NCBI GenBank assembly: GCA_020724225.1
Contig: DYHI01000012.1
Location: 1-33,045, forward strand
Reading direction: 5' to 3'
Length of the DNA stretch: 33,045 bases
From: Candidatus Altimarinus sp.
GTDB lineage: Bacteria; Patescibacteriota; Gracilibacteria; BD1-5; UBA6164
The notes beneath the pieces are model-generated. The model searched no databases and was not told the origin of the DNA. It saw only the letters and a program-made list of their open reading frames with translations. The translations under genes were made by a program, and so were the position numbers. This document shows positions 5,199 to 33,045 of this stretch, in pieces; position 1 is the stretch's first letter, and each line of letters opens with the position of its first letter.

Positions 5199-7079
5199 AT
5201 GAAAAAGTTAATTATTATTTTATTTTATATACTAAATTTTACATTTTTATCAGTTTTTGCAGATGATATAAAAATAATTTCTAGAAGTGAATGGTGAGCA
5301 GATGAAACATGGAGATATGCTGATAGTGAGGTTTGGAAAAATTATTTTGATAAACTTTATAAAGATTCTAGTTTACCTGAAACTGAAACTCAAAAAAAAC
5401 AGAGAATTAAAAATCAAGAAATTAATAATTATCTTTCAAAAAATTATAAAGAAGATAATACCTTAGTTGAATTTATAAAAGAGGAAAAATGACATCAACT
5501 TTTTTGGCCTATATGAAAAACAAATTATGTTAAATCAATAGTGATTCATCATACTGATACATCAACATGATGAACTTCAATAGATGCTATAAAATCTATT
5601 TATAAATATCATACATTAACAAGATGATGGGGGGATATAGGATATAATTATCTTATATGATTTGATTGAGAAATTTATGAGTGAAGAGCTTGATGAGATT
5701 ATGTAGTTTGAGCACATGCTTTGCGGAATAATCGCTCATCTATATGAATATCAATTATTTGAAAATATAATCATGAAAAAATAAGTGAAAAACAATATGA
5801 ATCTTTAAAAAAACTGGTACAATTTTTGACAAAAAAATATGGAATTGATGTAAATAACTCTTATGATTACCATAGAGATTGTATATGAAATAAATGTGAT
5901 TTTCATATAGAAACTTATAAGGATAATGTAATAGTATGACATAGGGATGTATGACATACAAATTGTCCTTGAGATGAATTTTATAAACAAATTCAAATAC
6001 TAAAAAATGATCTAAAATCAGAAACTTTTTGATTTAAATTAGTTAAAAATAATTTCAAACCCAAAGAGCTTGTTAAATCTGAATTGGATAAAAAATTAGA
6101 TAAATTATCAGAGTATGAATTATTAAAATTACTTGCTCAAATTGATTATTCACTAGATAAGAAAAATGATTTAAATCTTAAAAATTTAAGATCGAAAATA
6201 TATTCAAGATTATATAAAGAAAAATTAAAAAATACAGATAATGTTAAATTAGACTATGATAAAAATGATAAAATAAAAGTAAAATTATCATATCCATATA
6301 AAGATTATATAACTGTAAAAAATTGAACTAATATTTACGATATTAAATTATTTTCTTGAAAATTATTAGTAAATGATAAAGTAGAGTATAACAAAATTAA
6401 TATAAAATCACTAAAGTGATGATTTTTAGAGGTACTTTCTTGGGAAAGAATTCCTTCATGGGATAAAGAAAAAAAATATAATGATAATAAATTTAAATGA
6501 AATTTATTTTTATATGTAAAAAATAATGAAATAGTAGTCGTTAATGAGGTAAACTTTTCTGATTATTTAAAGTGACTTTGAGAAGTAAGTGATAGTGATA
6601 ATCCAGAAAAAATAAAAACTATAATAATTGCTGCAAGGACTTATGCAAAATGGTATACAACAAAAGCTAGAAAATTTCCTTGAGAAATTTATGATGCATC
6701 TGATAATCCTGATGTTTTTCAAAAATATTTGTGATATAGTTTAGAATTAAGAAGTCCAAATATAAATAAATTGGTAGATCAAACATCGGGGCAAGTAATT
6801 ACTTATAATTGAGATATTATAAAAGCTTGGTATTTTTCTCAAAGTAATTGAAAAACTTTGAGTTTTAAAGATTATTGTACAAAAAATTGAGCAAGTTGTA
6901 AAAATATAGATTATCCTTATCTTACATGAGTTTTTGATCCATGAAGTGTTTGAAAATCTAGTTTATGACATTGAGTTGGTATATCATGAGCTTGAGCGAC
7001 TTATTTAGCAAAAAAGTGATGGACTAATGATATGATAATAAAATATTTTTTAAAATGAGTTAAAATTAATAGTATATAA
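5199..7079 (+). CDS. Secreted PGRP-type amidase fused to SpoIID lytic transglycosylase
   Basis: A 626-aa exported peptidoglycan hydrolase with two catalytic domains. A signal peptide occupies about residues 1-21, ending SVFADD. The Amidase_2/PGRP domain spans about 100-275: IVIHHTDTS with H117/H118, GDIGYNYLIG, IYEGRAGGD and GHRDVGHTNCPGD with H248 and C256 as likely zinc ligands. It would cleave MurNAc-L-Ala bonds. After a Lys-rich helical linker comes a SpoIID domain (about 430-626): DYLKGLGE with E462 as the likely catalytic acid, IIIAARTYAKWY, YFSQSNGKT, and a final GHGVGISGAGA. SpoIID cuts glycan strands from which stem peptides have been removed, so both steps would lie in one chain. 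Codon 176 is CGG at a normally aromatic position. A Lys-rich leaderless-like start (no Shine-Dalgarno) precedes the gene. Confidence 0.9.
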
Positions 7080-7197: not shown

Positions 7198-10100
7198 ATG
7201 ACAAATTTCTTTAAAAGTACTAGAGTTAAAATAATTGTGTTTTATGCATTTTTTTTACTCTGAATAACTAGTCTATTAGCTGTTGATAATTTAAGTTTAT
7301 CAACAACAGATATAGAGGATAATATAGTTTCTTGAACAAGTATATCTACTATTAGTTCAACAAATGCTAGTTGATCTGTAGTTTATAGTTTTGATTGTTC
7401 TACACCTTGAGTAGATGATTCTAGATTTTCTATATGATGAGCTTGAGATGAACTTATCATAAATGAAGATCCTGATTATTGGACGAAAAGCTCTTATGAT
7501 ATATGTATAAGAGCAACTGATGATGATTGAACTTATGATGAAAATTTTACTTTAAATGTAGTTGATAAAACTAATCCTGAATTTACTGCATTGACACTTT
7601 TGTCAAATAATTCAAATTCATGAGCATTTGCAAAAGCATGAGATGAAATAATTTTTTCTTTTGATTTATCTACATGAGATTCTTGGTGAGCTTGAAATAA
7701 TTTAGTTTTTGATATTTGAAATACAATTTGAGAAATACTTAATTTTGATCAAAGCTTAACTCAGTTATTATCACAAAATAAAACTTATATAGTTTTGCCA
7801 TGACAATCTTGAAGTATAAATTTAACCAGTTATACTTTTGTTGATAATAATTCAAATTCTTTAAATTGATTATCATTACCTTATACATTTTCACAAAATA
7901 TAATTGTTGATACAACATCTCCAAACATATCTTTTGTAGATGATGTTTCATCAACTCCTACTTTATATGATGATATAAATATAACAGTTAATGATGATTA
8001 TTTAGATGAAGAAAATAGTTTAAAATATTCATATTCATCTGATAGTACTTGTGATGATAATGATTTGTATTCTGAGTCATTTACATCTGGATTAACTTTC
8101 ACTATTTCAGATACTTTAAATAATTGAAAATATGTTTGTGTAAAAGCAGTTGATTATGCTTGAAATGTAACTTACTTAGCTTCTTCAAATCCACTAGATA
8201 TAGCCATACCAAGTATAAGTTTGTCATGAACTTGAATTAATGAAAATCTATGATTAGGGGTATCAATATGAGATTTATCAACTACATTTTCAACTTGAAC
8301 AACTTTTGATTATGCTTTAGTTATATGAACTTGATCAGATGATAATGCTAGTTTTTCTATAAGTTGAGCATCTTTATTTGCAGAATTTGATTGAGATTTT
8401 GAAGTAAAAAATACTTATAATATAAGAATTAGTAGTACTGATGAAAATTCAAATGTTATAGAGAAAGATTTTGTTATATACATAAATGATGTAAACGAAA
8501 ATCCAACGGATATAAGTTTGAGTCCTGTTTCAATAGATGAAAACTCATGAATTTGAGCTACAGTATGAGATTTTACAACTACTGATGAAGATTCAAGTGA
8601 TACTCATACATATTCATTAGTTGTATGAAGTTGATCAGATGATAATGCTAGTTTTTCTATAAGTTGAGCGACTTTAGTTGCAGAATTTGATTGAGATTTT
8701 GAAACAAAATCAAATTATTCTGTTCTTATAAGATCTACTGATAATTTATGATTATTTATAGAAAAAGAATTCACAATATCAGTAAATAATCTTGCAGAAG
8801 CTCCAAGTGATATAATTTTATCATGATCTACGATTGAAGAAAATTCTTCAATTTGAACTTTTGTATGAGATTTAAGTAGTATAGATGAAGATTTACTTGA
8901 TTCACATAACTATAGTTTAGTTATATGAACTTGATCTGATGATAATGATTTATTTTCAATAACATGAACATGACTTTATGTTAACTGAAATATAGATTTT
9001 GAAACAAAATCAACTCTTTCAATTTTAGTTAGAAGTACAGATTTAGGGGGAGCATATTTAGAAAAACAATTTAATATAACAGTTACAAATGCAAATGATA
9101 CTCCAACTGATATAACATTAACTTGAAGTACAGTTGATGAAAATACTTCTACTTGAACTTTAGTTTGAGATTTAAGTAGTGTAGATGAAGATGTAGGGGA
9201 TAGCTTTTTGTTCACATTAGTTGCATGAACATGAAGTGATGATAATGCTTTATTTACACTATCATGAGCAGAAGTTTATACACAATTTTCTCCAAATTAT
9301 GAATTAAAAAGTGCTTATAGTATAAGAGTTCAAACAGCTGACAATTTATGAGCAACTTTTGAAAAAGCAATTACAATAAGTATAAATGATATAAATGAAA
9401 TTCCAACAGATATAACTTTAGATACAAATTCAATAGATGAAAATTTACCAATATGAACAATAGTTTGAGATTTAACTACAACTGATGAAGATGTTTGAGA
9501 TACTTATACTTATAGTTTAGTATCTTGAACTTGATCTGATGATAATGCTATTTTTTCTATAAGCTGAGCAACTATAGTTGCAGATTTTAGTGCTGATTAT
9601 GAAACAAAAAATAGTTATACTATATTGGTGCAAACTACTGATGCAGGATGATTAACTTTAGAAAAACAATTTACAATTACTATAAATGATATAAATTTAG
9701 CACCTTCCAACTTAACTCTTAGTGGAAATACAGTAGATGAAAATCTAGTTTCTCCAGTTGTAATTTGAGAGTTAACTTGAACTGATGATGGTGAAAATAA
9801 TTGAACACTTACTTATAGTATATCATGTGTTACTTGATGAGTTGATGATGCAATTTTTGCACTTAGCTGAACAACTCTATCAATAAATGTAACTTCTGAC
9901 TATGAAACTAAAAGTTCATATGATGTATGTGTAAGAGTAAGTGATGGAATATTAAATCTAGATCAAAACTTTACAATATCAGTAAATGATATTAACGAAA
10001 CTCCAACTGATATTGGATTGACTTTAACTTCAATAAATGAGAATTTATCTGTTTGAACTTTAGTTTGAACACTAAGTACAACTGATGAAGATTTAGGGGA

Positions 10101-13100
10101 TACTCATACATATAGTTTAGTTTCATGAACATGATCAGATGATAATTTATCATTTTCAATTAGTTGATCTTTACTTTATGCAGAATTTAGTGCAGACTAT
10201 GAAATAAAAAATAGTTATAGTATATTGGTACAATCTACAGATTTAGGATGATTAATTATAGAAAAACAATTCACAATTTCTATAAATGATATAAATGCAG
10301 CACCAACTGATTTAACACTTAGCTGAAGTACAATAAATGAAAATTCATTCGTTTGAACTTTTATATGAACATTAATATGAACTGATGATGGAGAAAATAA
10401 TTGAATTTTAACATATTCATTTACATGTGGAACTCCATGAATAGATGATACATCATTTACTTTAAGTTGATCAAATCTACTTAGTAATGCTGTATTCAAT
10501 TTTGAAACTAAAAATACTTATGATATTTGTGTAAGTGTAAGTGATTGAAATTTAAGTTTAGATAGAAATTTTACAATTACAGTAAATGATGTAAATGAAA
10601 CTCCAACAGATTTAATTTTAAGTTCAACATCAATAGATGAGAATTTATCAATCTGAACAATAGTTTGAAATTTAAGTACAACTGATGAAGATACTTGAGA
10701 TACTCATACTTATAGTTTAGTAGCTTGAACTTGATCTGATGATAATGCTAATTTCTCTATAAGTTGAGCAACTTTGATTGCAGAATTTAGTGCAGATTAT
10801 GAAACAAAAAATACTTATACTATATTGTTACAAACTACAGATGCTGGTGGATTAGTAAGAATTGAGCAATTTACAATTACTATAAATGATATAAATTTAG
10901 CTCCAACTGATTTAACTATGAGTTGAAGTACTATTTTGGAAAATTCATTTATTTGAACTGTAGTTTGATCTTTAATATGAACAGATGATAATGAAGATAA
11001 TTGAATATTGACTTATACTTTGACATGTGCTACTTGATGAGTTGATGATATAAAATTTAGTATAGTTTGAGATGAACTTAGAACTGCAACACAAATTAAC
11101 TTTGAAAGTTGAAGCACTTTAAATATATGTGTAAAAGTAAGTGATTGACTTCTTAGTTTTGATAAAAATTTTGTAATAGATGTTATAAATGTAAATGAAT
11201 CTCCGTATAGTTTTATATTGACTCAAAATACCTTTAATGAAAATGTTTGAACTTGATTTATAGTTTGAAATCTAAGTAGTTTAGATGAAGATTTTTGAGA
11301 TAATCATACTTATAGTTTTTGAACTTGACCTTGAAGTACACATAATTCTAGTTTTACACTTAGTTGATCAGAAGTTATAGCAAATTTTAATCCAAATTAT
11401 GAATTAAATAATTTATATGAAGTAAAATTTAAAGTAACTGATAGTTGATGAATAAGCACAGACTTACAAAGCATAATTTCAGTTAATGATGTAAATGAAG
11501 ATCCAACCGATATTACATTGACTTGAAGTTCAATTGATGAAAATATTTGAACAGGTTCATTGGTTTGATTATTTAGTACTGAAGATGAAGATATATGAGA
11601 TAGTCATACTTATACTTTTGTTTGAGGAATTTGAAGTGATGATAATACAAGTTTTACAATTATTTGAAATGCTCTAATAGCAGACTTTGTATGAGATTTT
11701 GAAACAAAAAATACATATAATATAAGAATTAGATCAACTGATAATTGATGATTATTTACTGAAAAACAATTTACAATTACTATAAACGATATAGATGAAA
11801 CTTGAGTTTTAGTTACTCTTAGTTGAAGTACATTGAATGAAAATACTTCTACTTGAACTTTGGTTTGAATACTAAATACAACAAGTTCAAATACTTGAGC
11901 AACTTCATTTACATATACTTTAGTAACTTGAACTTGATCTGATGATAATTCTAACTTTTCTATTAGCTGAGCAATTTTGGTTGCAGAATTTATCGCAGAC
12001 TATGAAACAAAAAATAATTATAGTATATTAGTAAGAAGTACAGATAATTTATGAAATCATACAGATAAACAATTTATTATAAATGTACTAAATCAAAATG
12101 AAGTTCCTTTAGATATTTCACTTAGTTCAAATACAATTGACGAAAATATTATGGGGATATATACAATAGGTAATTTTTCAACAATTGATACAGATAATTC
12201 AGATTCACATACTTACAATTTAGTATGATGAGTTTGAAGTAATGATAATGCAGATTTTGCTATAGTTTGAAATACTTTAGTTTGAGCATTTGTTCCAGAC
12301 TATGAAACAAAAAATACATACTATATAAGAGTTAGGAGTACAGATGCAGGATGATTAATGATAGAAGAACAATTTACAATTTTGATAAATGATCTAGGAG
12401 AAAATCCAACTGATATAACATTTAGTGGAAGTTTGAGTTTGGATGAAAATATGTCAACTTGAACAACTCTATGAGATTTTAGTACTACTTGAACAAACTC
12501 ATGAGTAACTTATACATATACACTTACTTGATGAGTAATGGATAATGATAGTTTTACCATAAGTTGAACTACATTAACTGCTAACTTCAGTGCTGATTAT
12601 GAAACAAAAAATATTTACAATATACAACTTAGAAGTACTGATAGTTTAGGATATTTTATAGAGGAAAATTTCACAATTACTATAAATAATGTAAATGAAA
12701 CTCCTACAGATATAAGTTTATCAGCTAATACTCTTTTAGAAAACTTATCAATCTGAACAACTATTTGAAATTTAAGTACAACAGATATAGATTTTGGTGA
12801 TACTTTCACATATAGTTTAGTTGCATGAACTTGAAGTGATGATAATTCTAGTTTTTCTATAAGTTGATCAACTCTAATTGCAGAGTTTAGTGCAGACTAT
12901 GAAACAAAAAATACTTATAACATACTAGTACAAAGTACTGATTTAGGTTGATTAACAACTGAAAAACAATTTACAATTTCTGTAACTAATGAAAATACAG
13001 CACCATCAAGTTTAACATTAAGTTGAAGTACGATAGATGAAAATTTACCTATATGAACTTTTATTTGAGAATTAATATGAACTGATGATTGAGAAGATAA

Positions 13101-15123
13101 TTGAGTATTGAATTATTCTTTAACTTGTTGAACTCCATGAGTAGATGATACATTATTTACATTGAGTTGATCTAGTTTATTTTCAAATGCAGTATTTAAC
13201 TATGAAACAAAAAATTCTTACAATATATGTGTAAAAGTAACAGATTGAACTCTAGACTTGGATCAAAATTTTACAATTACTATAAATGACCTTGTTGAAA
13301 ATCCTACTGATATAACATTTAGTTGAAGTCTATCAATAATTGAGTGAACTTTTACTTGATACACTATGTGAGATTTTGACTCTGTATGAGTAAATACTTG
13401 AGTAACTTATACATACTCATTTGTAACTTGAACTTGAAGTGATGATAATTTATCATTTACATTAAGTTGATCAACTCTATCTACAAACTTTAATGCTGAT
13501 TATGAAATAAAAAATATATATACAATAAGAATTAGAACTGAAGATAATTTATGAGCTTCTTTTGAAAAACAATTTACAATTACTATAATAAATCAAAATA
13601 ATCCTCCAACAGATATAACATTAAGTTGAAGTACAATAAATGAAAACTTACCTATTTGAACTTTGATTTGAACTTTAATATGAACTGATGATTGAGAAGA
13701 TAATTGAGTATTAACTTTTGGTTTAAATTGTTCTACTTGATGAACTGATGATGCTAGTTTTAATATATCTTGAATTAATTTACTAAGTAATGCTATTTAC
13801 GATTTTGAAACAAAATCAACATATAATATATGTATAAGAGTTAGTGATTGAACTTTTACATTTGATAAAAATTTTGTTATTTCAATTAATGATGTATCAG
13901 AAACAACATCAGATATAATATTTAGCTGAAGTTTAGCTTTTGCTGAAAATACAGTATCTTGATATATTTTATGAGATTTTGATACAACTTCTACTAGTAT
14001 TTGATTAACTTATACATATTCTTTAGTAGCTTGAACTTGATCTGATGATAATACAAGTTTTACATTATCTTGAAGTACTTTGATAACAAATTTTGTTCCA
14101 GATTATGAAACAAAAAATACTTATACTATAAGAGTTAGTAGTACAGATAGTTTATCTGGAACAATTGAAAAACAATTTTCAATTACAATTAATGATGTAA
14201 ATGAAATACCAACTGATATAGCTTTAAATAATTCATCTATAAATGAAAATTTATGAGTTTGAACTATTGTTTGACAATTATCTTCAATAGATGTAGATGC
14301 TTGAAGTACTTATACTTATGCTTTGGTTTCTTGAACTTGAAGTGATAATAATGCATTATTTTCAATAAGTTGAAATAACTTAATAGCAAACTTTAGTGCA
14401 GATTATGAAACAAAAAATACTTATACAATTAGAGTTAGATCTACAGATAATGGATTATTGTTTACTGAAAAAATATTTATTATTTCAATAAATGATGTAA
14501 GTGAATGATGAGGTTCTTCAGGATGATGAAGTAGTTGATGATGATGATGAATGTTACCTGCTTTACAAAAAGATACTTGTCCATCTTGAGATTATTCACC
14601 AAGTTATTATGATAAAACTTGTGGTACAAAACCTACTTCTACTGGATCTACAAGTAATTGAACTACTAAATCTTCAACTTCTACTTGAAGTATATCTTCA
14701 GTTACAGGATCTCTAGATTTAGCTACAATTGAAAAATTACTTGATAAAAGTTTTAAAGCTATAATTCTTGTAAGTAGTGATTGACAAAAATTAACTCTTC
14801 AAAAAACTATTACTTGAAAATATGTTTTAAAAAATCAAGATTGAAAATATATAAATAAAGTGTTTTGAAGTATGTTACAAGCAAAACTTTATGTTTCAAA
14901 TTTATGAGATAATGAAAGAGAAACAATGCCAGAATTAGATAATCCTTTGATTACTATAGACTTATGATTTACTCCAATTATATATAAGAATAGTAAATGA
15001 GAAAGATTTATAGTTCAAAAAACAACAGATTGAAGATATGTACTATATACTGAAAATTGAATGAAATTAAACTGATACTTTACAAAACTTTGGCATATAA
15101 TTGTGTATTTGAAATATAATTAA
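7198..15123 (+). CDS. Giant secreted cadherin-repeat surface protein, 2641 aa
   Basis: A very large exported protein, probably an adhesin. A hydrophobic N-terminal signal segment (about residues 10-30) is followed by a first cadherin-like module, two Ig-like or bacterial-type beta modules (to about residue 340), and then 21 cadherin-like units of about 100 residues. Each unit follows the pattern I(D/N)EN...GT.VG.LST.DED..DT.TYSLV.GTGSDDN..FSISG..L.A.FS.DYETKN.Y.I.V.STD..G...EKQFTI.INDINE.PTDI. The acidic DEN, DED, DYE and ND/DxN residues are those that bind Ca2+ in cadherins. A 15-residue Gly/Ser linker, a CPSGDYSPSYYDKTCGT motif, a Ser/Thr-rich spacer and two short beta modules (GKYVLKNQDGKYI, GRYVLYTENGMKL) close the protein. 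No LPXTG motif and no C-terminal membrane helix are present. Nearly all glycines are TGA. Confidence 0.92.
8221..14505 (+). repeat. Tandem array of 21 cadherin-like units with 300-bp period
   Basis: Units begin at about 8221, 8521, 8821, 9121, 9421, 9721, 10021, 10321, 10621, 10921, 11221, 11521, 11821, 12124, 12424, 12721, 13021, 13321, 13624, 13924 and 14227. Units 2 to 13 are spaced exactly 300 bases apart. Three subtypes can be seen. Type A has TTDEDxGDT and no Cys. Type B has GTDDGExNG and one Cys pair (units 6, 8, 10, 17, 19). Type C begins SGSL and has a modified DF-T-S/T-N-TG segment (units 15, 18, 20). Units 1 and 2 share near-identical DNA around 8338-8400 and 8638-8700. Confidence 0.9.
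14506..14550 (+). repeat. Gly/Ser linker with five consecutive TGA codons
   Basis: The segment encodes GGGSSGGGSSGGGGG. Its end, 14536-14550, is (TGA)5 in frame, residues 2447-2451 of the cadherin-repeat protein. It separates the repeat array from the C-terminal domains. Confidence 0.9.
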
Positions 15124-29771: not shown

Positions 29772-30218
29772 ATGATAATTAAATATATATCTTCTATATG
29801 AGAAATAAAGGAAATTGATTTATTTGATTTATTTAAAAAGTCTGAAAAGACTATATTGTATTTTTATCCTAAGGATAATACTCCATGATGCAGTTTAGAA
29901 GCAAAAGATTTTACTTGTAGAAAAGATGAGTTTAAAAAATTATGAATTCAAATAATTTGAGTTTCAAAGGATAGTATAGAAAGTCACAATAAATTTATAG
30001 ATAATCTATCACTTTGAATTGATTTGGTTTCTGATCCAGATCTTGTTTTGCATAAAAAATTTTGAGTTTATTGAGAAAAAAATAATTATTGAAAAATAGT
30101 TATGTGAGTTATAAGGAGTACATTTTTGATTGATTTGAATTGAAATATAATAAAAGAATGGAGAAATGTAAAAGTAACATGACATGTAGATAAAATATTA
30201 AAAGAATTACAAAAATAG
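29772..30218 (+). CDS. bcp: Bcp/PrxQ-type peroxiredoxin
   Basis: A 148-aa thiol peroxidase of the AhpC/TSA family, Bcp subgroup, that reduces H2O2 and organic hydroperoxides in the cytoplasm. LYFYPKDNTPGC matches the Bcp active-site loop, with peroxidatic Cys C40. A second Cys is C49, a C-x8-C spacing, whereas the usual PrxQ resolving Cys follows after four residues. The position of the usual resolving Cys is K45. VIRSTFLIDLNG is the conserved Arg segment. It lies 18 bases after secD and may be co-transcribed with it. This is the only complete gene in the window that ends in TAG. Confidence 0.9.
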
Positions 30219-30247
30219 AGTTTACTTTTCAATAAACTCTATTTTTG
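30210..30247 (+). terminator. Terminator after the peroxiredoxin gene
   Basis: A perfect 15-bp stem (CAAAAATAGAGTTTA and its complement) with an 8-base loop, containing the TAG stop codon. Confidence 0.85.
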
Positions 30248-30249
30248 TC

Positions 30250-30278
30250 AAAAGATTTTTACAAAAAATCTTTTTTTT
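30250..30278 (+). terminator. Second tandem terminator
   Basis: AAAAGATTTTT pairs with AAAAATCTTTT around a 3-base loop, with a run of eight Ts at the end. It lies three bases after the first terminator and probably insulates the downstream surface-protein genes. Confidence 0.75.
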
Positions 30279-30326: not shown

Positions 30327-31199
30327 ATGACAAAAATAAAAAAGGATTTTTCATTAATACTATGAGTTTTAGTTGTATGAATTATTATGATTGTTTTGGT
30401 TTGATTGATAAATTCACGAGATAAGTCAACTGTTAATTTTCCAAAAACACCTCCAAAGGATATCAATTTTCCTGCAGCAAATATTGATGATTTAGATATT
30501 TGAGATTCATCAACATGATTATTAGATGAAACAGATTGATTAAATACGAAAGTTAAAGATGAAAATAAAATTAATCAAGAAAAAGAAAATCAAATTCAAA
30601 AAGATATAATAGATGCAATTAATCTAGCTTGAAAAATTGGAGTTCCTGATTGATGTGATTCAATAACAGATTTAGTAGAAAAGGAAAAATGTCTTAATAA
30701 TTCAAATGCATCAAAAGCTAGTTTGGAAAATAATCTAGATTATTGTAAAAAAATCACAGATATAGAATGGAAAAATAGATGTTCAGATAATTATTATAAT
30801 GAAAATGCATATAAAAATAATGATTATTCTGTTTGTAAAAAGATTTTAAATGAAGATATCAAAAATAATTGTTTATCATCAATTATTTTGTGACAAATAG
30901 ATTCTAGTGATTTTAAATGATCTAAAGAAATATGTAATCAATTAAAATGAGATAATAAAACATATTGTGAAAATAAGTTAAATTCAAAAAATGATGTGGA
31001 AATATTGTGAGATGCAGTTGATTCTTTAAATTTAAATCTATGCTGAAAAGTAATTGGGCAAGAATTAAAAGCAAAATGTATGGATGTTATAAATTTTAAA
31101 ATAGCTATTAATAATAAAGATATTTCAAAATGTGAACTAATAGTTGAAGAAAATTTAAATAGTCAATGTATATTAACTTTAACACAAATAAAAAAATAA
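30327..31199 (+). CDS. Membrane-anchored protein with six Cys-pair helical repeats
   Basis: A 290-aa exported protein. An N-terminal helix (about residues 8-27) is followed by a Pro/Asp-rich stretch and an extracytoplasmic part with 12 cysteines in six C-x10/11-C pairs. Examples are CKKITDIEWKNRC, CKKILNEDIKNNC, CGKVIGQELKAKC and CELIVEENLNSQC. Each pair would clamp a helical hairpin through a disulfide. Spacing between pairs is about 20-40 residues. I recognise this as a repeat type common in CPR exported proteins, with unknown function. Codon 31 is the only in-frame CGA in the window. The next gene starts one base after the stop, so the two exported proteins are probably co-produced. The start is an ATG after an AT-rich leader. 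Confidence 0.82.
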
Positions 31200-31200
31200 T

Positions 31201-33045
31201 ATGAAAAAACTATTAGTAATATGTTCTTTTCTACTAGTTTTAGTAGTAAATAGTGTAGATGCTGCAAATATAAGATCTATTTGATCAGTTCCAGCTGATA
31301 CTACTTGAGCTTGATATGGATGAAAACTAGTTTTCCCATCAACATGAAGTTGAGTTTTTGTAAATAATGATAATTATTTATTAAATCCAAATTCAAATTT
31401 GCAAATATCATGAAGTTTTTGGTTATCAAATCTTTCAACTGTAGCAGATCCAAGTTTATGATGGGTAACTTTTGATATATGAACAGTACCATGAGCTTCA
31501 AACGTAGTTTTAATTAATAATTTAAATAATACTTTTACTTTTTCATGATATGCTTGGTCAAAATGAGCTGGATGGATATATTTTTCTCCTGCTTTATTAA
31601 AAGATACATCAAATAATGATATTGCAAATTCAAAAGTTATTTACAATAAAACAACATGATTAGTTTCTTGATGTGCATGGAGTCAAAATTTGGGATGGTT
31701 ATGTTTTGATTGAATAACATTGGATATGACACCACCTGATTTGACTAATATTCTTAAGCCTACAGCAGCTAATAGTTCAAAAACTTTTACTTTACTTGAA
31801 AGTGCAACAATTGAAATTGATAATTGGACCTCAGTATGAGTATCAACATATTCATGAACTTATTTTACACACGATATAAGAAAAGCTAAATTCTATCATA
31901 TAAAAGTTACTGATACATCTTGAAATTTTTCTACTTGATTAATTCAAGTTGTGGCAAATATACCTTCAAAAACACTTAATTCAAATAATATTTGAGAATG
32001 AGCTAGCCTATATAACTCAACTGTATTAGATAATGTTAAAGCAGATTGATATGATAAACACAGTATAAATATAAAACTTAGAGATACTTATTGAAATCTT
32101 GTCATTCCAGTAGATTGAGTAAAAGAAGTTTTTGTAACTTTATGATTTGATAATAGTATTGATTTGAATCAGTTTTCTAATAGTGATTTATGAGATGCAG
32201 TAAAATTTGAAATAGAAGACTTTTTTTTCAATCCATGAAGATACATAGAAACTTCAAATTTGATGCCAAAAAACGATTGAAACTATAAATTAGATTTTTC
32301 TTCATATGCCCCATCAAAATCTTGATATACTTATACTCAATCAAACAATGATATAAAAGTTAATAAATTGATTATAAATGTAACCGCATTATGATGAAAT
32401 ACTTGAGTTTGAGAATGAAGTTTTGATGAAAAAGATAATTATCCAAATGTATTTGCTTTTATTCCGGCTGTTTCTGTAACATGAATACTTAACTCAAATA
32501 GTTGGAACATAACTAGAGATAATGAAACAAGTTTTACCTGAGTAGTAAATGTAATAAAAACTTCAGGTTCATCTAATATAAATAATATACAAATAACTCA
32601 TATACTTGATGTAATGAGTGGTAGTACTTATAAAAATGATTTATTAAGTTTCCAAGATTTAGTATGAACTACAGGGGCATCTGTATGTGTATGAAATAAT
32701 ACTTCAACAGGATATTATCAATCAAATATATCTTGTAATAAATATTCACCAAATAAATCATCAAATATAATAAGAAATCATTGAGATAAAAATTCATCAA
32801 CTACTATATATGATATATTTAGAGCTACACCAAGAATAGTTGCAAGTGGATTATCAAAAATGGATACTAGATATAGTTCTGAAGTATCTTATACAATTGA
32901 TTGAAAAAATGTTAAATATCCTTCATTTTTTAGTACATATTGATCAAATATAATAAACAATGAAGTAAAAATTACTTGAATTGTAAATAAAAATAATAAT
33001 AACTTTTCAGTTGTTTCTGATTCAAGTATAAATTATATCTGAAAT
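31201..33045 (+). CDS. Large secreted surface protein, partial (runs off the window)
   Basis: The first 615 residues of an exported protein; the frame is open to the window end. The signal peptide (MKKLLVICSFLLVLVVNSVDAA) is followed by a beta-rich region with two aligned motifs, GYAWSKGAGWIYFSP (about residues 114-128) and GCAWSQNLGWLCFDG (about 156-170). This GxAWSxNxGWxxF motif recurs in exported proteins of CPR bacteria. The rest is Ser/Thr/Asn-rich with Ig-like features (TYSGTYFTHDIRKAKFYHIKV, SGNFST). Glycine is almost always TGA. It probably forms an operon with the Cys-pair repeat protein ahead. Function is unknown; adhesion or surface assembly is inferred from export and composition only. 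Confidence 0.85.

Follow-up and report, generated by a model that had tools for sequence, protein, structure and literature searches.

A cysteine-pair repeat gene and an AWS-motif surface protein gene form a conserved pair in Gracilibacteria and may head a surface adhesin-display locus

The window analysed here, a stretch of 33,045 nucleotides, is contig C48 of the Candidatus Altimarinus sp. genome G000 (1.17 Mb, 54 contigs, 94.6% complete), which uses NCBI genetic code table 25, with TGA read as glycine. Two genes occupy its end on the plus strand: a 290-aa cysteine-pair protein (30327-31199; hereafter the Cys protein) and a surface protein with AWS motifs (31201-33045; the AWS protein), of which the first 615 of 828 aa lie in the window. 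The single base between them, pointed out in an earlier note on this DNA, was recovered under table 25; with table 11 neither gene is an ORF and the window end carries no gene on that strand, indicating that table 25 is required. Two AT-rich, terminator-like hairpins with T-runs (plus strand, 30209-30248 and 30250-30274) stand between a peroxiredoxin-like gene (29772-30218) and the pair; RNA folding of 30209-30274 gave -22.9 kcal/mol (z -4.9), supporting the two tandem terminators described earlier, and a simple terminator scanner listed the first hairpin only, on the minus strand. The AWS gene runs off the end of the contig. The window's final 55 bases (32991-33045) are identical, base for base, to the first 55 of contig C13 (L046 1-55), so that the two contigs of this assembly can probably be joined, and reading across them (rest of the gene at L046 2-697) gave the complete 828-aa protein. 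The large secreted protein proposed at first does carry a signal peptide but is cut by the contig end, which is also why the genes that follow it, here called tails, were invisible in the first reading. Elsewhere in the window, 15 kb from the pair, a 2641-aa exported protein (7198-15123) has, by eye, many cadherin-like repeats, and a 626-aa exported protein (5199-7079) has an amidase-like and a SpoIID-like domain by eye, perhaps marking a peptidoglycan hydrolase.

The Cys protein is composed of an N-terminal hydrophobic anchor, a charged linker and six C-x10/11-C helical repeats. The anchor, a predicted helix at aa 5-29 (30339-30413, plus strand), has no A-x-A cleavage site, and the repeat region (aa 107-290; 30645-31196, plus strand) holds exactly 12 cysteines (110/122, 140/152, 170/182, 203/214, 239/251 and 269/281), forming five C-x11-C pairs and one C-x10-C pair. 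Six pairs were reached in none of 100,000 shuffles of the ectodomain, which bears out the six repeats read from the sequence at first. All 12 cysteines were invariant in an alignment of 13 sequences, that of the window included, and many relatives have 16 cysteines rather than 12. An AlphaFold model (mean pLDDT 76) showed a helix at the N-terminus, a linker of low confidence and a helical repeat of about 30 residues made of one short and one long helix; both cysteines of each pair lay in or beside neighbouring helices, so that each pair can pin a hairpin, and the model suggests that disulfides form within the pairs. TPR and alpha-solenoid folds are superhelical arrays of helix pairs, and matches of the model to alpha-solenoid folds were weak (best Foldseek E 0.28, best Z 6.4). 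A Pfam scan of two Cys proteins gave no match, Sel1 included; Pfam and NCBIfam scans of the two window proteins yielded nothing except one chance-level match (E 0.05), and a profile search of solved structures with the Cys protein returned two chance-level matches only. A search for VKOR, a usual disulfide former, gave no match in either the window's genome or G001. The window's genome has two DsbA-like thioredoxins, which do not discriminate, since such proteins occur in 37 of the 40 genomes of that search. The cysteine-rich Hcp proteins of Helicobacter, which are Sel1-like, carry disulfide-pinned alpha-hairpin repeats outside the cytoplasm, and the Cys protein would resemble them in this respect; in contrast to Hcp, its repeat is about 30 aa long with C-x10/11-C and no Sel1 Pfam match, and it has a membrane anchor, whereas Hcp proteins are freely secreted.

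The AWS protein starts with a signal peptide with a V-D-A cleavage site after aa 21 (31201-31263, plus strand), followed by a triad of beta-hairpins (31378-31734, plus strand), the last two of which carry G.AWS...GW motifs at aa 116 and aa 157 and are preceded by a third, degenerate hairpin. Both motifs of the earlier note were therefore present, although its consensus GxAWSxNxGW fits the second only, the first being GYAWSKGAGW. The protein has further beta-rich stretches and a conserved C-terminal domain ending in I-E-Y-D...P-P. A signal-peptidase-I-like site was present in all AWS proteins inspected (13/13), with no later helix of membrane strength by a hydropathy rule. The window's AWS protein had no N_methyl match in Pfam and no class III prepilin leader of the kind that marks type IV pilins. 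PilC/PilY1 proteins carry a C-terminal beta-propeller domain; in a sequence test, the PilC/PilY1 Pfam domain was not matched by the window's AWS protein or by three relatives. A profile search of solved structures gave no match for the AWS protein, and its structure model (mean pLDDT 57) was too poor to reveal a docking surface. Foldseek matches of this model (complement, integrins, GhpA) were left unused, being generic Ig-rich hits with TM-scores of 0.05-0.25 to a poor model. For the AWS hairpin repeat, no Pfam model was seen covering it in ten proteins of other groups (L060, L064, L068, L069, L073, L076, L078, L080, L081 and L088), although many phyla have the repeat.

Co-occurrence of the two gene types in related genomes was the test proposed with the first reading. 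Single-protein searches of 40 genomes, the window's own included, gave matches to the Cys protein in 13 and to the AWS protein in 10, and two genomes of the window's genus lacked both. In a class-wide profile survey (n = 353 genomes) the AWS profile matched 199 genomes and the Cys profile 137, many of the AWS matches covering the C-terminal domain only. Full-length AWS proteins, defined by a match E below 1e-100, amounted to 18 copies in 17/353 genomes, and all 18 had an adjacent Cys match on the same strand, a count uncorrected for shared descent; the Cys gene was upstream in 17 and downstream in one (G098, contig C28). Conversely, among 24 genomes with a strong Cys match (E 1e-37 or better), an AWS partner was adjacent in 21, truly absent in one (G032) and unjudgeable in two (G039, at a contig end, and another in which the sequence next to the gene is unreadable). 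In the window's family (f1) the pair was present in 5/48 genomes (G000, G001, G004, G113 and G115). At all five loci read in family f34, the Cys gene stands before a 1130-1270-aa protein with the C-terminal domain, and the AWS match was placed inside that protein in four of the five. In most loci the two genes were no more than 84 bases apart, and in three they overlapped slightly. Adjacency was counted at 26/32 loci (L123 corrected by HMM coordinates), a biased set because L107-L126 were partly picked for proximity of both matches, and the counts on which we rely were taken from ranked lists; L043 (G026) had no Cys match above the locus-scan threshold.

Fifty loci in named genomes separated the whole protein from its motif. 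Seven were full-length, all from Candidatus Gracilibacteria and each with a Cys gene, whereas the remaining 43, with AWS repeats or the C-terminal domain only, had no Cys-family match within the available sequence; these came from Paceibacterota, Riflebacteria, Acidobacteria, Phycisphaerales and others. A unit consisting of the AWS motif with the Cys repeat was consequently rejected, since the AWS repeat is common in other phyla, where no Cys gene accompanies it. The proposed co-occurrence therefore held for the whole proteins and failed for the motif, indicating that the pairing belongs to the former.

Beyond the contig junction, the AWS gene on C13 is followed by four tail genes (241, 290, 433 and 344 aa, at spacings of 8-26 bases) and then by what looks, by eye, like uvrB. 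Common to the tails is an N-terminal module made of a signal peptide, [IL]-[TS]-aromatic-P, P-S-G-E, G-G-x-F-x-x-Y-F-N-K-I-L-V-N-T and D-G-T-V-K-K, while the C-termini of the C13 tails are unrelated, matching Fib_succ_major, kelch and TSP1 in three of the four; tails of other genomes matched Shufflon_N, tail-fibre, List_Bact_rpt and DUF285 domains, with one sub-threshold collagen match. A signal-peptidase-I-like A-x-A site was found by a simple rule in 15/15 tails, with no later hydrophobic stretch of membrane strength, and the tails scanned showed neither an N_methyl match nor a type IV pilin leader. An aromatic residue preceded the first proline of the mature protein in 31 of 35 tails parsed by a crude rule, which left 3/38 unparsed and misread at least L147. 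Two tails of G113 are 100% identical over their first 270 bases and then unrelated, and two of G001 are 91% and then 22% identical, which points to the joining of new 3' parts to a constant 5' part. In the PilV shufflon tips of IncI plasmids, a recombinase and inverted repeats switch the 3' end while the N-terminus stays constant. The tails resemble that system (Shufflon_N, PF04917) in their constant N-terminus and variable C-terminus, and two of them match part of Shufflon_N; they differ from it in being separate complete genes with no invertible 3' end, and in having a signal peptide instead of a prepilin leader. Giant tails of 1366-2265 aa were also seen (L146 7308-11408, L147 4509-9401 and L148 7927-14724), those of L146 and L147 ending in a charged stretch, ...L-D-A-I-E-A-x-L-x-K, coiled-coil-like in appearance. 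At L131 3910-5192 (G115), two neighbouring genes share the near-identical N-terminus AAWTTLTSNQGATGQPVNQTLMQGIINNLNDLNTRVA and end differently, which makes them another constant-plus-variable family in addition to the tails.

A tail profile, built from genes near the pair, matched 25/353 genomes, namely all 17 with a full-length pair and 8 of the other 336. Among the 48 genomes of family f1, tails were found in the five pair-bearing genomes and, as a weak match (E 4e-4), in G126. Nothing argues more strongly for a joint function of the three parts than this patchy co-occurrence, although transfer of the set as a block would produce it equally well. Seven tails were counted in the window's genome (C13, four; C14, C23 and C46, one each), and up to ten were found in another genome (G101). 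In 14 of the 25 tail-bearing genomes a tail and an AWS triad shared a strand and lay no more than 6 kb apart, against a mean of 0.6 and a maximum of 5 in 5,000 random-placement draws; of these loci, six were on contigs used for the tail profile and nine (eight genomes) were independent of it. Six pair-bearing genomes had tails only elsewhere (G024, G037, G098, G101, G113 and G115), which contig ends explain in part. At the five f34 loci read, the pair was present and no tail gene was recognised nearby, indicating that tails are not needed for pairing.

AWS triads and tails were also found in pilin-like settings. Contig C14 of the window's genome encodes a 464-aa protein with a pilin-like N-terminus, KKAVTLVELVVVITIL (by eye), and three C-terminal AWS hairpins, homologous to the window's triad (32% identity). 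Its N_methyl match (E 0.0015, 18.5 bits) is below the cut-off of 21.2, and it is probably a type IV pilin. A tail gene follows 24 bases later and then a signal-peptidase-like gene (by eye). In G094 the gene order is T2SSF, two N_methyl pilins, one further gene whose product is PilX-like by eye with no Pfam match, a gene with AWS and the C-terminal domain, and three tails. Among ORFs of other groups with at least two AWS motifs, a strict pattern recognised a pilin-like N-terminus in 6/32. The AWS protein's C-terminal domain may itself be a pilus marker, as proteins sharing it are encoded near prepilin-peptidase or pilin genes, which is suggestive only. As a separate observation, in family f34 a prolipoprotein diacylglyceryl transferase gene (LGT, E 3e-26; L111 11166-11945) follows that of the big protein, and LGT-similar ORFs are present in L112-L114 and, by eye, beside the AWS-tail loci of family f2 (L143, L144 and L148).

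Taken together, we consider it on balance probable that the pair forms the constant front part of a locus for displaying surface adhesins, with a Cys anchor, an AWS platform and exchangeable tails; the linkage of these genes is observed, and the binding of their products is what we infer from it. The Cys protein would stay uncleaved in the membrane with a disulfide-pinned alpha-repeat arm outside, and would hold the secreted AWS protein at the surface. The latter would act as the platform on which tails dock through their conserved mature N-terminus, [IL]-[TS]-aromatic-P...P-S-G-E...G-G, so that the exchangeable binding domain would lie outermost, where it could touch host cells or surfaces. 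Of the roles offered at first for the Cys protein, an anchoring or assembly partner fits its anatomy: a signal-peptidase-like site was found by a simple rule in 3/13 Cys proteins, in each case inside the hydrophobic run, and as the only part without a clear site the Cys protein is the likeliest anchor, its hold on the AWS protein being presumptive.

A membrane-tethered chaperone is unlikely: the Cys protein would then be a folding or export factor for the AWS protein, which something else would hold. The short spacing and the Cys-first order in most loci resemble a chaperone made just before its client, and helical-repeat folds are characteristic of scaffolds and chaperones, but the fold matches are weak (best Z as given above), an AWS protein with no other membrane helix by the hydropathy rule would be released if unanchored, and no Cys gene adjoins those of the related AWS proteins at C14, C34 and C142.

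We regard as quite doubtful a reading that places the AWS protein at the tip of type IV pili, as a counterpart of PilY1, with the Cys protein as a pilus assembly accessory and the tails as further pilus-borne adhesins. The G094 gene order, the AWS triad on a pilin-like protein of the window's own genome and the AWS repeats on pilin-like proteins of other groups speak for it; against this, inspection by eye of the window and of the fetched flanks of the pair (G000, G001 and G004) revealed no pilus gene save one opposite-strand pilin-like ORF (L033), and the AWS proteins scanned lacked a PilC/PilY1 match. That the pair forms an envelope structure such as an S-layer-like coat, with tails adjoining by chance or shared transfer only, would suit the pairs without recognised adjoining tails in f34 and other families but is very improbable given the tail-AWS adjacency at the nine further loci, far above the random-placement null.

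Returning to the display locus that we favour, precedents known already are modular pilins, PilY1, CofB-CofJ and shufflon tips. In CofB-CofJ of ETEC CFA/III and TcpB-TcpF of V. cholerae, according to the accessible parts of the sources, a minor-pilin adaptor is combined with a secreted protein docked by its N-terminus (PMC9565799, PMC8179133), and an aromatic residue of the mature N-terminus of CofJ and TcpF is needed for minor-pilin binding (PMC9565799). Here too the adaptor gene (AWS or AWS pilin-like) adjoins that of a secreted protein bearing a signal peptide, as on C13 and C14 and in the 14 of 25 genomes above, and the mature tail N-terminus is conserved with an aromatic, as in the CofJ and TcpF peptides so far as those sources describe them. 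The systems share no sequence relation in family scans, one adaptor would serve many unrelated C-termini, and the window's adaptor is not a pilin, as CofB and TcpB are, but is secreted and paired with a Cys protein of the membrane. Modular pilins and PilC/PilY1 join a carrier module to an effector module (PMC8179133, as far as its text was available). A carrier with a variable binding module is common to both, and the AWS triad on a pilin-like protein fits that description (PMC8179133, same extent); in contrast, carrier and effector are here separate proteins and the window's pair has no pilin part.

Since the aromatic is needed in CofJ and TcpF and recurs in most tails, we hypothesise that tails plug into the AWS triad much as CofJ and TcpF bind a minor pilin. 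AWS genes with tails also occur without a Cys gene, on the pilin-like protein and in the pilus gene cluster, so that the Cys protein would be one of two mounts. Tentatively, the AWS triad could be a general docking socket and the tail N-terminus its plug, with two mounts and interchangeable tips, some arising by 5'-3' joining. Just as speculatively, the seven tips of the window's genome would then be divided between the Cys mount (four) and the pilus mount (one), the remaining two being scattered.

Published work describes a hypervariable surface-protein repeat in one Gracilibacterium (PMC6851277, accessible part) and the expression of type IV pili and of a VCBS protein by Gracilibacteria from groundwater (PMC11452946, likewise in part). 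No description of a Cys-AWS-tail gene set was found in the open-access PMC literature, within the available portions of these two papers and others. On how Gracilibacteria and Patescibacteria recognise and hold their hosts, the literature, to the extent accessible, names type IV pili and mostly unspecified adhesins. The locus gives the Cys-pair repeat and the AWS triad, neither of which has a Pfam model, a setting and a test, and is a concrete conserved candidate for host holding, with anchor, platform and exchangeable tips. It could help explain how uncultured, host-dependent Gracilibacteria grip their hosts, and, if the plug-and-socket arrangement is true, a host-dependent bacterium could exchange tips and thereby alter or widen the range of its partners.
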